Shown one piece after another: positions 38,487 to 43,399 of a DNA stretch of 64,000 bases (within the stretch, counting starts at the first letter, position 1; each line of letters opens with the position of its first letter). The notes beneath the pieces were generated by a model. The model ran no database searches, was not told the origin of the DNA, and saw only the letters and a program-made list of their open reading frames with translations. A program made the position numbers and the translations under genes. Source of the stretch: Cyclobacteriaceae bacterium. Its GTDB lineage: Bacteria; Bacteroidota; Bacteroidia; Cytophagales; Cyclobacteriaceae. Where the stretch lies: NCBI GenBank assembly GCA_016786585.1, contig JAEUUI010000008.1:186001-250000 (forward strand), read 5' to 3'.

Positions 38487-38795
38487 TTAAGGCTTCTTCT
38501 TCTCGTTTCGTTCGAACGACTGGCGCGCAGCTGGTTTTGAAATAGTCCATGCCGGATAGCCAGTTGCTACCACCTTTTTGGATGCCGTTGTTTCTTTGCG
38601 CTGGATGTTTTTAGAAACAATTGACGACACATCGGTAATATTAAATGTAGCCGGATTGTAAGCTACGTTCCGATAGGCATGACGCTGAATCTCTTTCGTG
38701 ATTGTCCAGTAAGGATAGTTTCCGTTTGTTGAATCCTGCGCACGAAGAAGAACAGGCGTAGCAAGGAGTAAGAATATCAGACTAAGTTTTTTCAT
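38487..38795 (-). CDS. Small exported protein with two YPxWTIxK repeats
   Basis: 102 residues. The ATG at 38795 opens the signal peptide MKKLSLIFLLLATPVLLRA; the longer frame (38831) adds 12 residues in front that look non-coding. The mature part carries two copies of a motif, YPYWTITK (about 27-34) and YPAWTISK (about 80-87), each followed by a basic helix-like stretch (EIQRHAYRN; PAARQSFERN). The rest is Lys/Arg-rich with SKNIQRKETTASKK between the copies. No known domain is recognised. The basic, repeated, Trp-containing motif suggests binding to a polymer or surface, which is a guess. Confidence 0.65.
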   Translation of the reverse strand: MKKLSLIFLLLATPVLLRAQDSTNGNYPYWTITKEIQRHAYRNVAYNPATFNITDVSSIVSKNIQRKETTASKKVVATGYPAWTISKPAARQSFERNEKKKP

Positions 38796-38975
38796 ACCGG
38801 GTTCATTAATGCAGTAAAGAACTTTAATCATTCAATAAGGCATTTCGCATTCACACGGCTCAAAGATTATAAAAAATCAGAATATTGGAAATTCTGCAGC
38901 GCAAACCTTTGCAAAGAGCTGAAATTCAGTGTAAAATAGATTAAAAAGTTATCCGCAACAGCAGGCCGGACAAAT

Positions 38976-39032: not shown

Positions 39033-40067
39033 TTAATGACCGTTTACCGTAGCGTATTCGGGCACTGTTTTAACTGTTTTAATGATTCGGGCCGCAACCT
39101 TGTAGGGATCGGCTGCCGAGTTCGGACGTCTGTCTTCCAGCCAGCCTTTCCATCCGCTCTCTACCGTTGCAATCGGAATTCGGATCGATGCCCCACGGTC
39201 TGATACACCATATGAAAACCTGTCGATCGATTGGGTTTCATGCTTGCCGGTTAATCGCAAGTGATTGTCGGCTCCGTAAACGGCAATATGTTCTTTCACG
39301 AAAGGTGCAAACGCCTGGCAAACCGTATCGTAAATTTCTTTCGAGCCAGCGGTCCTCAACAGCGAGTTGGAGAAATTGGCGTGCATACCGGAGCCGTTCC
39401 AGTCGGTCGCGCCAAGCGGTTTGCAATGCCAGTTGATGGCCACACCGTATTTTTCAGCCGTGCGCTCCAGCAGGTAACGCGCTACCCAAACCTGGTCGCC
39501 TGCGGCTTTGGCACCCTTTGCAAAGATCTGAAACTCCCACTGCCCGGTGGCTACTTCGGCATTTATTCCTTCCACATTAATGCCTGCTTCGAGGCAATAG
39601 TCGAGGTGTTCCTCCACAATTTCTCTTCCGAAAGCATTCTTGGCGCCTACTGAACAGTAATAAGGACCTTGCGGTGCCGGATATCCTTTTGACGGGAAAC
39701 CAACAGGCTTATCGGTTTCAGGATTCCACAGGAAGTACTCTTGTTCAAATCCGAACCAAAAGTCGTTGTCATCGTCATTGATGGTAGCACGACCATTGGA
39801 CGGATGGGGTGTCCCATCGGGGCTCAATACTTCGGTCATTACCAGGTATGCATTCTTCCGGGCTGGGTCAGGAAAAAGTGCTACAGGTTTCAATAAACAG
39901 TCCGAGGAACCTCCCGGTGCCTGTTCGGTTGAACTGCCGTCAAACGACCATTCAGGACATCCCTCTAACGTTCCATCAAAGTTTCGAACGATTTTCGTTT
40001 TACTGCGGAGGCTTTGGGTTGGTTTATATCCGTCAAGCCAGATGTACTCGAGTTTTGTTTTCGACAT
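39033..40067 (-). CDS. glnA: Glutamine synthetase, type II (eukaryote-like)
   Basis: 344 residues, typical of GSII rather than bacterial GSI (about 470) or GSIII (about 725). The beta-grasp part has WSFDGSSTEQAPG, and the catalytic part FGFEQEYFL, INAEVATGQWEFQI, NGSGMHANFS and RLTGKHETQS. The enzyme makes glutamine from ammonia in the cytoplasm. The region GVSDRGASIRIPI is the substrate-binding Arg stretch. The gene follows amtB and a porin-like gene, in line with ammonia uptake feeding assimilation. A GSIII is also present at the left edge. Confidence 0.95.
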   Translation of the reverse strand: MSKTKLEYIWLDGYKPTQSLRSKTKIVRNFDGTLEGCPEWSFDGSSTEQAPGGSSDCLLKPVALFPDPARKNAYLVMTEVLSPDGTPHPSNGRATINDDDNDFWFGFEQEYFLWNPETDKPVGFPSKGYPAPQGPYYCSVGAKNAFGREIVEEHLDYCLEAGINVEGINAEVATGQWEFQIFAKGAKAAGDQVWVARYLLERTAEKYGVAINWHCKPLGATDWNGSGMHANFSNSLLRTAGSKEIYDTVCQAFAPFVKEHIAVYGADNHLRLTGKHETQSIDRFSYGVSDRGASIRIPIATVESGWKGWLEDRRPNSAADPYKVAARIIKTVKTVPEYATVNGH

Positions 40068-40107: not shown

Positions 40108-41289
40108 TTAAAACTTGTAGACAGCCGCCAGACTGAACGTAGCCAGCAGGTCAGTTGCTTTATTGTCTTTATCGACGAATGAATCTTCGGATGTTTTATC
40201 GATCCTGAACTCAGGAATCAGCATGAGTCCGCCAGCTTTATAGTTAGCCGACAGTGTAAACTCCACCACGCTTCCGTCTCCCAGGTTCACATCGTTGATG
40301 GCATCGTACTTGTCGAGTGTAAAGATGTTCAGGTGGGCGTTTTTAATTGCGAAGTATTCTCCGCGTAAACCGAGAGAGAAATTTTCAGTCAAGGTAAGTT
40401 TGGGATAGAGCGCCACTCCGAAGAAGGAGGATGCATCGCCATCCGAGTCAACTACATCTCCATCCACATTCAATTCTTCTCCCGCTGCAGTTGTCTGATA
40501 TGATGCATTTATCCCGAGTGAAAATTTTTCACCCAAGTTTACGCTTGCTGTGATGTCGCCCTGAAACAAAGTTCCGGCAGAAGTGCCGTCTTCATCCGGA
40601 TCGGATTCATCCAGTGTTCCATCCTGATCGCCATACAAAAAGTTCAGGTATACGCTTCCGCCATCGCCTGCCTTGCCAACCTGTGCTCCGAGGGTGTATG
40701 TGTTTACAGGATTAAACTCAACGATGTCGGTTGGGTTCATAATGGAAAGCTTTCCGACAAAACCACCACCGAAATCAAAGTCAGCACGAAGACCAGTATG
40801 GTTGAAAGGTCCCCACGAGAACAGGTATGATGTTGAGTAGTGAAAATTGATGGCAGGTGAGATTACTTCATAGCCCAGGAAAGTGTTAAACTGACCCAGG
40901 TTAAGCGTTACATGGTCGCCCAGCTTGTAATACACATATAGCTGATTTACAATAGCCTGGCCACTTGCTGTACCGAATACGGCTGCCTGGCCCCGGGGTC
41001 CGAAAACAAGGTCGCCAACGAAGCCCGACTTCTCGCCCTGATAGGATGCAATCAGGTTAACCATGCCTAACGAGAAACCGCGCAGGTCTGCAAACGAAGT
41101 TGACGGTCCATACGAGCCGCCCATGTACGGGTTTGTTGTTTTGAAAGAGGTGTGAAAGTACGTATCAACAGAACCTGCAAGAGAAAATGTGGGCTTTTCT
41201 TCTTTTTCTTCTGCGGGAGCGTCTTGTGCTATGATGGCCGTATTGAACGACAGGATGAGGAGCAATGCATAGATAAAATTCTTTTTCAT
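40108..41289 (-). CDS. Outer-membrane beta-barrel, OmpL-like putative porin
   Basis: 393 residues. Signal peptide MKKNFIYALLLILSFNTAIIA, then an acidic linker (APAEEKEEKPTF) and a barrel of the putative beta-barrel porin-2/OmpL-like type: SLAGSVDTYFHTSFKT, FADLRGFSLGMVNLIASYQG, YEVISPAINFHYSTSYLFSWG. It ends ATFSLAAVYKF with the aromatic C-terminal Phe. Asp-rich loops (DGTLDESDPDEDGT; DGDVVDSDGDASS) could bind divalent cations. It lies between amtB and glnA, suggesting it admits ammonium or an organic nitrogen source across the outer membrane. The precise substrate is unknown. Confidence 0.85.
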   Translation of the reverse strand: MKKNFIYALLLILSFNTAIIAQDAPAEEKEEKPTFSLAGSVDTYFHTSFKTTNPYMGGSYGPSTSFADLRGFSLGMVNLIASYQGEKSGFVGDLVFGPRGQAAVFGTASGQAIVNQLYVYYKLGDHVTLNLGQFNTFLGYEVISPAINFHYSTSYLFSWGPFNHTGLRADFDFGGGFVGKLSIMNPTDIVEFNPVNTYTLGAQVGKAGDGGSVYLNFLYGDQDGTLDESDPDEDGTSAGTLFQGDITASVNLGEKFSLGINASYQTTAAGEELNVDGDVVDSDGDASSFFGVALYPKLTLTENFSLGLRGEYFAIKNAHLNIFTLDKYDAINDVNLGDGSVVEFTLSANYKAGGLMLIPEFRIDKTSEDSFVDKDNKATDLLATFSLAAVYKF

Positions 41290-41381: not shown

Positions 41382-42707
41382 TTATGGAGCAGGGTACAGC
41401 GTTTCGCCATGCTGACTGAAATCGGCACCCACTTTCTTGTCTTCTGCACTCAACCTGAGCGGAGAAATCAGGTCAGTAACTTTCAGCAGGATGAATGATC
41501 CGATGAAGGTGAAGCTCACAACGATGGCAAGTGCTTTCATGTGAACCAGGAAAAGAGTTGTTTCACCGAAGAAGAGTCCGTTACCTGTTGTATTTGCACC
41601 GTTCACAGCTTGTGTGGCAAGTAATGCGGTCATGATCATTCCAACCAATCCGCCCACACCATGACATGGGAATACATCAAGCGTATCTTCAAGTGATGTT
41701 TTTGCTTTCCAGTGTACCACAATGTTGCTGATCAGCGCTGCAATTGTTCCGATGAACAAGCTTGAAGGTATTGTTACGAATCCGGCAGCGGGAGTAATGG
41801 CTACCAGGCCAACCACAGCTCCGATACAGAAACCGAGTGCCGATAATTTCTTACCGCGAACGGCATCCAGCAGTACCCAGCAAAGTCCGGCAGCAGCCGA
41901 CGCAGTGTTTGTTGTTGCAAACGCAGATGCGGCTAACGGATTAGCACCCAATGCGCTTCCGGCATTAAAGCCGAACCATCCGAACCACAGTAAACCGGTT
42001 CCGAGCAGTACAAACGGAACGTTTGCAGGTGCATGCGCCACTTTTTCTTCGCTTTTGTTGCGCAGGTAGATTGACGCTGCGAGTGCGGCGAACCCGGCCG
42101 ACATGTGTACTACTGTTCCTCCGGCAAAGTCAAGCACGCCCCATTTGAACAGGAACCCGTCCGGATGCCACGTCCAGTGAGCGAGCGGAGCATAAATCAG
42201 CAGTGAGAAAAGTACCAGGAAGATAATGTACGATTTGAAGTTGATCCGTTCGGCAAATGTTCCGGTGATCAGTGCAGGCGTGATGATGGCAAACTTGAGC
42301 TGGAAGAAGGCGAACAATACCAGCGGGATTGTAGGTGCCAGTGCCCAGGGTGCTCCGTCAAGCACGTTCTTGAACATGAAGAAAGTAGTAGGATCACCAA
42401 TCAATCCACCCTGTGATGTTCCAAACGCGAGGCTGAAACCAACCACAATCCAAACAACACTGATGACGCCCATCGCAATGAAGCTCTGGAGCATGGTGGA
42501 AATGATATTCTTCGTGTCGATCATCCCGCCATAGAAGTATGCAAGGCCGGGGGTCATCAAGAGAACCAGTGCGGCAGCAGCCAGCATCCAGGCGGTGTCA
42601 CCTGAACTGATGCCTTCGGTAACAATGCTTCCCGGAACTGCCGGAATAAACAGTGCAAGAATACTGACACCGATCAGAAGGATAAACGGTATGAGAGATT
42701 TTTTCAT
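41382..42707 (-). CDS. amtB: Ammonium transporter AmtB
   Basis: 441 residues with a leading hydrophobic segment and 11 further membrane helices. Family residues are visible: the Asp of VLDFAGGTVVHMSAG, the two pore histidines (HMSAG and FPCHGVGG), and the Phe gate positions in the helix 2 and 6 regions. It carries NH3/NH4+ into the cell, usually under nitrogen limitation. No glnK/PII gene follows, unlike in most bacteria; instead the porin and GSII genes come next. Three phased dyads lie upstream and probably regulate the operon. Confidence 0.95.
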   Translation of the reverse strand: MKKSLIPFILLIGVSILALFIPAVPGSIVTEGISSGDTAWMLAAAALVLLMTPGLAYFYGGMIDTKNIISTMLQSFIAMGVISVVWIVVGFSLAFGTSQGGLIGDPTTFFMFKNVLDGAPWALAPTIPLVLFAFFQLKFAIITPALITGTFAERINFKSYIIFLVLFSLLIYAPLAHWTWHPDGFLFKWGVLDFAGGTVVHMSAGFAALAASIYLRNKSEEKVAHAPANVPFVLLGTGLLWFGWFGFNAGSALGANPLAASAFATTNTASAAAGLCWVLLDAVRGKKLSALGFCIGAVVGLVAITPAAGFVTIPSSLFIGTIAALISNIVVHWKAKTSLEDTLDVFPCHGVGGLVGMIMTALLATQAVNGANTTGNGLFFGETTLFLVHMKALAIVVSFTFIGSFILLKVTDLISPLRLSAEDKKVGADFSQHGETLYPAP

Positions 42708-42783
42708 GGTTAAGTGATGGGGTTTAGTGGTGGGAAATAGACTTCGAACGCGTTTGTTAATTTTTTATGAAATTCTGTGAAAT

Positions 42784-42905
42784 AGGTTAAAAACAGAACC
42801 TTATTTCAAAAAAAATTAACGAAAACGATTGTTATAGGGTAAAAAATGAACCTAGTAAAACAAAATTTTGTATAATTTTATCTTAACAGGGTAAAATTTG
42901 AACCT
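42784..42905. promoter_or_regulatory. Three 18-bp dyad repeats at exact 52-bp spacing, upstream of amtB
   Basis: Copies are AGGTTAAAAACAGAACCT (42784-42801), AGGGTAAAAAATGAACCT (42836-42853) and AGGGTAAAATTTGAACCT (42888-42905). They share AGGkTAAAA and GAACCT. The arms AGGTT/AACCT are a perfect inverted repeat in copy 1 and carry one mismatch in the others. The offset is exactly 52 bases both times, about five helical turns, so all three lie on one face of the DNA. The nearest copy is 77 bases before the amtB ATG, and the gene on the other side points toward the region from its 3' end, so amtB is the likely target. The regulator is not known. Confidence 0.8.
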
Positions 42906-43018
42906 AACTATGTTTGAAACTGGTCATGAGATCATGAAGATTTCAAATAGAAATCATGCGGTATCAAAAGATTTGATACAAACAGATGTGAGAGAGATGC
43001 TGGATAATAAAGCGAGCC

Positions 43019-43399
43019 TTAACGACTCAAGAGTTGCTTAAGTGCAGTCCAAAGATTTTTCTTTCGGGCATCGTCAAGCTGCCCGAGCGGGTCGGACTGG
43101 ATAATTGTTATACCATTATCGGTTTTTGCCTGGTATTGTTCTGAGTCCGGCAGAAGCCCAACTCCAAAGGAGATGATTAAGGATGGATTATAAACTGCGA
43201 GATCAGCCAATGAAGTCTTTTTGGTACTAAGTACCTGTACACCGGCAAGTGAAAGCCGGGCAGCGCCCAGGATTTTATCCAACAAGGTTATTTCGGCTTC
43301 CGGTAGTTCATTCCACGGCAGGGGCAGCAGTACGATGGTCCGCGCAGGCAGACTGTAAAGCTCTTCGGAATAAATAAACTGTCCGGGTGCAACACTCAT
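43019..43399 (-). CDS. Hypothetical protein downstream of a thioesterase
   Basis: 126 residues with no signal and no membrane helix. It reads as an alternating alpha/beta protein: ARTIVLLPLPWNELPEAEI, LDKILGAARLSLAGVQVL, LIISFGVGLL and a C-terminal helix KKNLWTALKQLLSR. Its ATG shares one base with the stop of the upstream thioesterase gene (TTA/CAT at 43397-43401), so the pair is coupled. I do not recognise a family. The clean frame and operon position support it as a gene. Confidence 0.75.
   Translation of the reverse strand: MSVAPGQFIYSEELYSLPARTIVLLPLPWNELPEAEITLLDKILGAARLSLAGVQVLSTKKTSLADLAVYNPSLIISFGVGLLPDSEQYQAKTDNGITIIQSDPLGQLDDARKKNLWTALKQLLSR

Follow-up and report, generated by a model that had tools for sequence, protein, structure and literature searches.

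A conserved, probable operator array with a five-turn period upstream of ammonium uptake and assimilation genes in Cyclobacteriaceae

Dyads of the form AGGKT-N8-AMCCT recur every 52–53 bp, or five helical turns, and are conserved upstream of both the ammonium transporter gene amtB and the glutamine synthetase III (GSIII) gene glnN in the family Cyclobacteriaceae. In many family members, a dyad ends 16–18 bp before a −7 promoter box that is exact at glnN and imperfect at amtB. Throughout the class Bacteroidia, glnN upstreams show this period too, but with another half-site. A sequence-only reading of one amtB locus had proposed a nitrogen-control operator. The conserved dyads at amtB and glnN support that proposal, neither of the two contrary outcomes that it named was found, and the finding is confirmed with a wider reach than was claimed, as a conserved nitrogen-assimilation operator array with a five-turn period. 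Little has been described of how Bacteroidota control their nitrogen genes at the level of transcription, and our searches of the open-access literature turned up neither an operator nor a transcription factor for amtB or glnN in the phylum.

The window is a 64,000-nucleotide stretch of the genome of a Cyclobacteriaceae bacterium (contig JAEUUI010000008.1, positions 186,001 to 250,000). Its three 18-bp dyads, AGGTTAAAAACAGAACCT, AGGGTAAAAAATGAACCT and AGGGTAAAATTTGAACCT in order of position, are present exactly as first described, with starts 52 and 52 bp apart (Table 1). They are imperfect palindromes and lie in a 311-bp gap (42708–43018) between the amtB start codon and the gene that ends at 43019, both flanking genes being on the minus strand. 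The porin cluster of the type found behind amtB in the window occurs in 26 of the 119 loci that were clustered by gene neighbourhood. Two further genes of the region may be mentioned in passing. The gene before the array (43019–43399, minus strand) has a sub-threshold match to the psi subunit family of DNA polymerase III (16.6 bits; cut-off 22.2). Downstream of GSII, on the same strand (38487–38831, minus), lies the gene of a small secreted protein that contains YPxWTI(S/T)K repeats and has no Pfam match.

Table 1. Features of the dyad array, the genes behind it and the glnN locus of the same genome (window coordinates unless a contig is given; positions relative to the transcription start are predicted)
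Feature	Coordinates	Strand	Remarks
Dyad 1 (distal), AGGTTCAAATTTTACCCT on the amtB strand	42888..42905	-	centre probably near −90.5 from the predicted start
Dyad 2, AGGTTCATTTTTTACCCT	42836..42853	-	17 bp between its end and the putative −7 box; centre probably near −38.5
Putative imperfect −7 box, TAATTTTT (consensus TAnnTTTG)	42811..42818	-	predicted transcription start near 42806
Dyad 3, AGGTTCTGTTTTTAACCT	42784..42801	-	centre probably near +14 from the predicted start
amtB, encoding an ammonium transporter, first gene behind the array	41382..42707	-	PF00909, 1.9e-110
BBP2-type porin, second gene	40108..41289	-	PF07642, 1.6e-62
Short glutamine synthetase, 344 aa, third gene	39033..40067	-	PF00120/PF03951; GSII by size and neighbours
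glnN (GSIII) of the same genome	1..2011	+	start and own operator just before the window
Operator of the same glnN	G000:C7:185721-185788		gene from C7:185849

The exact motif is confined to this place. In the whole genome (4,186,351 bases, 30 contigs), the degenerate pattern AGGKTAAAANNNGAACCT of the sequence-only reading has three perfect matches, all of them at the amtB array. A motif scattered without relation to genes would have spoken against an operator; outside the array, the 4.19-Mb genome holds no exact copy. With up to three mismatches allowed, there are 114 forward and 126 reverse matches genome-wide, against 106 and 101 for a reversed control pattern, and such weak single matches are chance. 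The looser AGGKT-N8-AMCCT is found at 19 places, against 9 for its reversed control.

Conservation at amtB was assessed from a family search, by which 180 of 196 genomes have an amtB-like gene. The loci that we read were the best matches from this search together with a search of the genome contigs, so close relatives are over-represented among them. Several relatives carry exact dyads upstream of amtB, and a looser score gives chains at about 52 bp. For the lag counts, exact duplicates (6 loci) were dropped beforehand and all lags in a range were scored. At close amtB loci, the motif product at lag 52 was 450 against a shuffle mean of 1.2, with 19 of 22 non-redundant loci positive (the window's own locus included). 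At the other family amtB loci it was 151 against 0.3, with 12 of 17 positive. At 55 further loci from the genome contigs the family motif left no more than a trace, with a product of 3.4 at lag 52 (one locus) and of 14.2 at lag 53 (two loci; shuffle mean 1.2). An alignment of 18 close amtB upstreams shows the sites conserved and, in the closest ones, also the stretch between two of them. The motif and its 52-bp spacing, whose absence from relatives was the other outcome that the sequence-only reading had set against itself, are thus present there. No good dyad chain was seen at the second amtB copies of four genomes (L154–L157, from G074, G156, G177 and G127) or at three paralogous amtB loci (L144, L147 and L148), and the second amtB of the window's own genome has a weak chain. 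The matrix trained on amtB used a 51–53-bp chain rule in training. Spacing obtained from that matrix is therefore not evidence, and the spacing evidence used here comes from the analyses that scored every lag in a range.

The dyads also mark a second nitrogen gene. Scanning 22 glutamine synthetase and 6 PII loci from 13 genomes with the amtB-trained matrix gave a dyad scoring above 9 in 11 of 13 family glnN upstreams and a pair at 52–53 bp in 8 of the 13. The glnN genes of G177 and G163 (L223 and L228) have no good dyad, and at the glnN of the window's own genome a single dyad is strong, the distal one being degenerate. This matrix gave no 52–53-bp pair at GSI, GSII or PII loci. The link to nitrogen, which had been drawn from gene neighbours, is now backed by a second gene with the same dyads. 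The check proposed with the sequence-only reading, whether the motif marks nitrogen genes in this and related genomes, came out in its favour at amtB and glnN; an extension to gdhA is weak. In the own genome, a single good dyad, GGGGTAAAATTTAAACCT, abuts the gdhA start codon (G000:C5:16500–16517; L176:1500–1517) and adjoins a good TAACTTGG box. That dyad is kept in only 2 of 13 orthologues, and gdhA was left as a weak lead.

Whole-genome searches used a tandem model of 70 columns, trained on 25 amtB stretches and run on 26 family genomes. Each such model search scored 150 candidates per genome (of 1771 in the own genome) and may therefore have passed over weaker places, and the E-values are rough. 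Among the candidates scored, glnN was matched at E<0.01 in G017 (1.9e-8), G173 (1.6e-5), G084, G118, G094 and the own genome (0.0047). The match in G173, a member of the same genus, came though that genome had no amtB match in the family search. Among the candidates scored in the own genome, E<0.01 was reached by amtB (part of the training set), glnN and the second amtB (0.007), so that the targets recovered are these three here and glnN in further family genomes. Copies of amtB outside the training set matched too, namely the second copy of G065 (7.1e-10) and a copy in G152 (5.4e-9). At the same threshold, G030 gave one match inside a glycosyltransferase ORF, which is not a nitrogen gene, and one more that was left unread; G140 and G132 gave one match each, without a nitrogen link or unread. 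The strongest match outside amtB (1.7e-10, among candidates scored) lies in G122, where three dyads spaced 52 and 52 bp precede the gene of a DUF6733 outer-membrane-like protein (G122:C1, L274:1448–1569). Tandem dyads in G152 (4.9e-8; G152:C14, L297:1501–1570) stand beside unknown secreted proteins, and a gene near them is related (34% across 74 aa) to the one for the small secreted protein that follows GSII in the window. A single-site model, R1, gave further non-amtB matches at E<=5 (L167, L168, L170, L174, L177, L178 and L180). They lie in or beside genes and were set aside, having no evident nitrogen link.

The dyads were also placed relative to promoter elements. The −7 box of flavobacterial housekeeping promoters is TAnnTTTG, at −12 to −5 (PMC9723704). 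Among 17 family glnN upstreams, 14 of which have a dyad scoring above 9, the distance from the end of the dyad to an exact TAnnTTTG is 16 bp in one, 17 in five and 18 in two; in two others it is 28, longer by roughly a helical turn. For the own glnN the gap is 17 (TAGATTTG). At amtB, the 40 bp that follow a good dyad never contain an exact TAnnTTTG. If TTTG may carry one mismatch, the 39 amtB upstreams give gaps of 17 in nine, 18 in four and 16 in two, all other gaps occurring at most three times, and dyad 2 of the window shares the 17-bp gap. The centre at −38.5 and the other positions in Table 1 rest on such predicted −7 boxes. By this measure the right half of the proximal dyad appears to stand in the place of the −33 element, which would tip the balance somewhat from a repressor towards an activator. 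An overlap of dyad 3 with the −7 box, considered at first, was dropped after the comparison with glnN.

Most glnN upstreams that we read outside the family lack good AGGKT-N8-AMCCT dyads. Several of them have GGGGT or ACCCC elements repeated at 52–53 bp, and self-similarity was therefore scored in a motif-free manner, with 8-base windows that agreed at 7 or more bases, of which 3 or more had to be G or C. The set comprised 108 distinct class glnN upstreams from outside the family, a part of the glnN places listed, and retained 10 homology-set gene starts that did not begin with M. Counts were 19 at lag 53, 17 at lag 52, 8 at lag 51 and 5 at lag 54, compared with a mean of 1.4 (s.d. 1.2, maximum 5) at other lags. 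The controls have no peak at lags 51–54: windows of matched AT content, 96 in all and taken from 48 of these loci, gave 3, 1, 1 and 1, with a maximum of 7 at lag 21; shuffled glnN upstreams gave 1, 1, 0 and 0, and 30 glutamate dehydrogenase upstreams of the family gave 1, 1, 0 and 1. Pairs of ACCC[CT] at class glnN told the same story (14 at lag 53, 10 at 52, 8 at 51 and 4 at 54; other lags mean 0.29, maximum 2), and GGGGT is found 37–38 bp ahead of ACCCC and 15 bp after it. At amtB of other Bacteroidota the period signal is weaker than at glnN. The motif-free score was positive at lag 53 in 5 of 53 and at lag 52 in 4 of 53 (other lags mean 0.58; control maximum 4), and ACCC pairs occurred at lag 52 in 4 of 55 and at lag 53 in 3 of 55.

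A class model was trained on 21 glnN stretches and run on 22 genomes. Among the candidates scored, 14 matches reach E<0.001, and each stands immediately ahead of a glnN gene, four of them outside the training set (the second copy of G402, and G356, G345 and G399). Between E 0.001 and 0.01, matches also fall beside unrelated genes (G427, G363, G404 and G454), and the best match in G387, marginal at E=0.02, stands before amtB. The model had no match among the candidates scored in the window's own genome, so the two site types are distinct. Given this and the different half-site, a single class-wide regulator is a hypothesis.

We consider it very likely that the array is a nitrogen operator, and we hold with good confidence that a single dimeric regulator is shared by amtB and glnN. 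That such a regulator acts through the −38.5 site, with its sign left open, is likely. The dyads would then be sites for a single dimeric transcription factor in control of ammonium uptake and assimilation, and its dimers would bind on one face of the DNA. The dimer at −38.5 could aid RNA polymerase binding, the dimer at −90.5 could add to that effect, and the amtB dyad near +14 might tune expression. For the regulator itself, its signal and its sign, we infer activity under scarce ammonium as moderately likely and lean slightly towards an activator. The leading guess for the factor, a CRP/FNR-like protein working like NtcA, is a tentative one that we consider rather doubtful.

Two known systems come close to this layout. 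NtcA, a CRP-family protein of cyanobacteria, has its site near −41.5 in canonical activated promoters (PMC3898017). The dyads resemble NtcA sites in their nitrogen genes, in a half-site geometry of GKT-N8-AMC beside GTA-N8-TAC, and perhaps in position, their centre being near −38.5 as placed by predicted −7 boxes. They differ in half-site sequence, in the two or three copies at a fixed 52–53-bp period, and in that no NtcA orthologue was identified. Class III tandem CRP promoters have sites near −41.5 and −93.5 (PMC5957442). Likewise, two in-phase dyads lie about 52 bp apart here, the proximal one probably over the −35 region. The targets in this case are nitrogen assimilation genes, however, the CRP consensus is absent, and amtB has a third site downstream of the predicted start. 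The N8 between half-sites is that of the NtcA/CRP family; the family's consensus sequences (GTA-N8-TAC, TGTGA-N6-TCACA and TTGAT-N4-ATCAA) do not describe the sites.

Searches for the regulator itself did not find it. Among consensus patterns of known regulators, the strict sigma-54, NtrC, GlnR/TnrA, NrpR, CRP and FNR patterns had 0 matches in 39 amtB and 13 glnN upstreams of the family. The NtcA pattern was found in 1 of 39 family amtB, 1 of 13 glnN and 0 of 1 own amtB upstreams, and a loose GG-N10-GC in 10 of 39 and 1 of 13. PII was detected in 6 of 13 family genomes, including the own genome (one copy) and one genome below the cut-off. It was not detected in the other seven, in which it can hardly be required; PII is therefore not a common property of the array genomes, as PII-dependent control would have it. 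HTH_Crp_2 proteins occur in all 8 genomes searched, and among 28 CRP/FNR candidates that we compared, no group both fits the sites and occurs in all genomes. A receiver-CRP fusion regulator of 353 aa (L242 and relatives; G000:C16:199909) was seen in 6 of the 8 family genomes searched. Neighbourhood clustering of 775 ORFs from 119 loci revealed no recurrent regulator beside amtB or glnN among the 45 largest clusters, the sole regulator-type exception being an ArsR-like protein at 2 loci.

NtrC/sigma-54 control acts on the same kind of genes, and genes for ammonium transport and glutamine synthetase have dyad operators for GlnR/TnrA in Firmicutes and for NrpR in Archaea. NtrC-type enhancer sites serving a sigma-54 promoter, as in enteric bacteria, would account for in-phase tandem sites upstream of nitrogen genes, and the class half-sites ACC...GGT resemble NtrC sites. 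Yet the strict sigma-54 and NtrC patterns are missing from every family upstream searched, the glnN dyads are followed by an exact −7 box of the housekeeping type, and more than half of the 13 genomes have no detected PII, which together make this explanation very unlikely. The GlnR/TnrA and NrpR consensus is equally absent, from the own amtB as from the rest. Least probable of all is that the repeats act in RNA, or are mobile or selfish without a regulatory role. The palindromes could form hairpins and dyad 3 falls in the predicted leader, but that leader folds no better than shuffles (z 0.04) and no Rfam match came near the gathering score; a structured RNA element was rejected as neither a known family nor a stable fold. 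A mobile or selfish repeat fits poorly with an exact motif that is not scattered and has no match in a plasmid collection.

A cooperative repressor held on the dyads in ammonium excess, with dyad 2 blocking the −33 region and dyad 3 the start, is a less probable but substantial competitor, similar in function to AmtR or NrpR. The overlap with the place of the −33 element, the position of amtB dyad 3 just downstream of the predicted start (near +14) and the phasing of the sites all suit it. The family glnN sites stand at about −38.5 and −90.5, and in the good cases the start itself is free of sites; repression, too, gives no need for the right half-site to replace the −33 element, although neither point is decisive. 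The direction of control in a relative does not help to choose. In the results given for Prevotella ruminicola, of the same phylum, amtB (69-fold) and the GSIII gene (35-fold) are among the strongest ammonium-responsive genes (PMC5552732), so joint control of these genes exists. One results passage of that paper states induction in limiting ammonium, its figure legend, enzyme data and discussion state higher levels in non-limiting ammonium, and its abstract calls GS-GOGAT expression similar; its account of these genes names no transcription factor. With the direction stated both ways, the sign of control is not settled and the odds for activation in nitrogen shortage are lowered. Another possibility, which we think somewhat unlikely, concerns the class signal: the AGGKT-N8-AMCCT dyads of the family and the GGGGT/ACCCC operators elsewhere could belong to two unrelated systems whose 52–53-bp spacing arose by convergence. 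Their half-sites differ and have opposite orientation, and the class model finds nothing in the own genome. Against this, both site types stand at the same genes with the same unusual period and are phased to the same kind of −7 box. We continue to favour a nitrogen operator array with one shared regulator in the family.

Extended to the class, this reading becomes a proposal that we rate slightly below an even chance. Nitrogen control in Bacteroidia would depend neither on PII, NtrC and sigma-54 nor on GlnR, and an ancient regulator family, reading half-site arrays at glnN and amtB, would have kept its period and promoter phase as half-sites switched between lineages, from AGGKT/AMCCT in this family to GGGGT/ACCCC elsewhere. 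If true, operator spacing would be more conserved than operator sequence, and a period that outlives its own half-site would be an unusual case of operator evolution. The arrays supply defined DNA for use as bait, along with target genes and a spacing rule, all of which can be put to the test at once, and they extend across a class abundant in guts, soils and waters. A side observation concerns five class members (G310, G281, G322, G326 and G296; L319, L321, L323, L326 and L328), in which a second short glutamine-synthetase-like gene lies about 0.4–1.1 kb from glnN on the opposite strand, so that one intergenic array may serve two synthetases.
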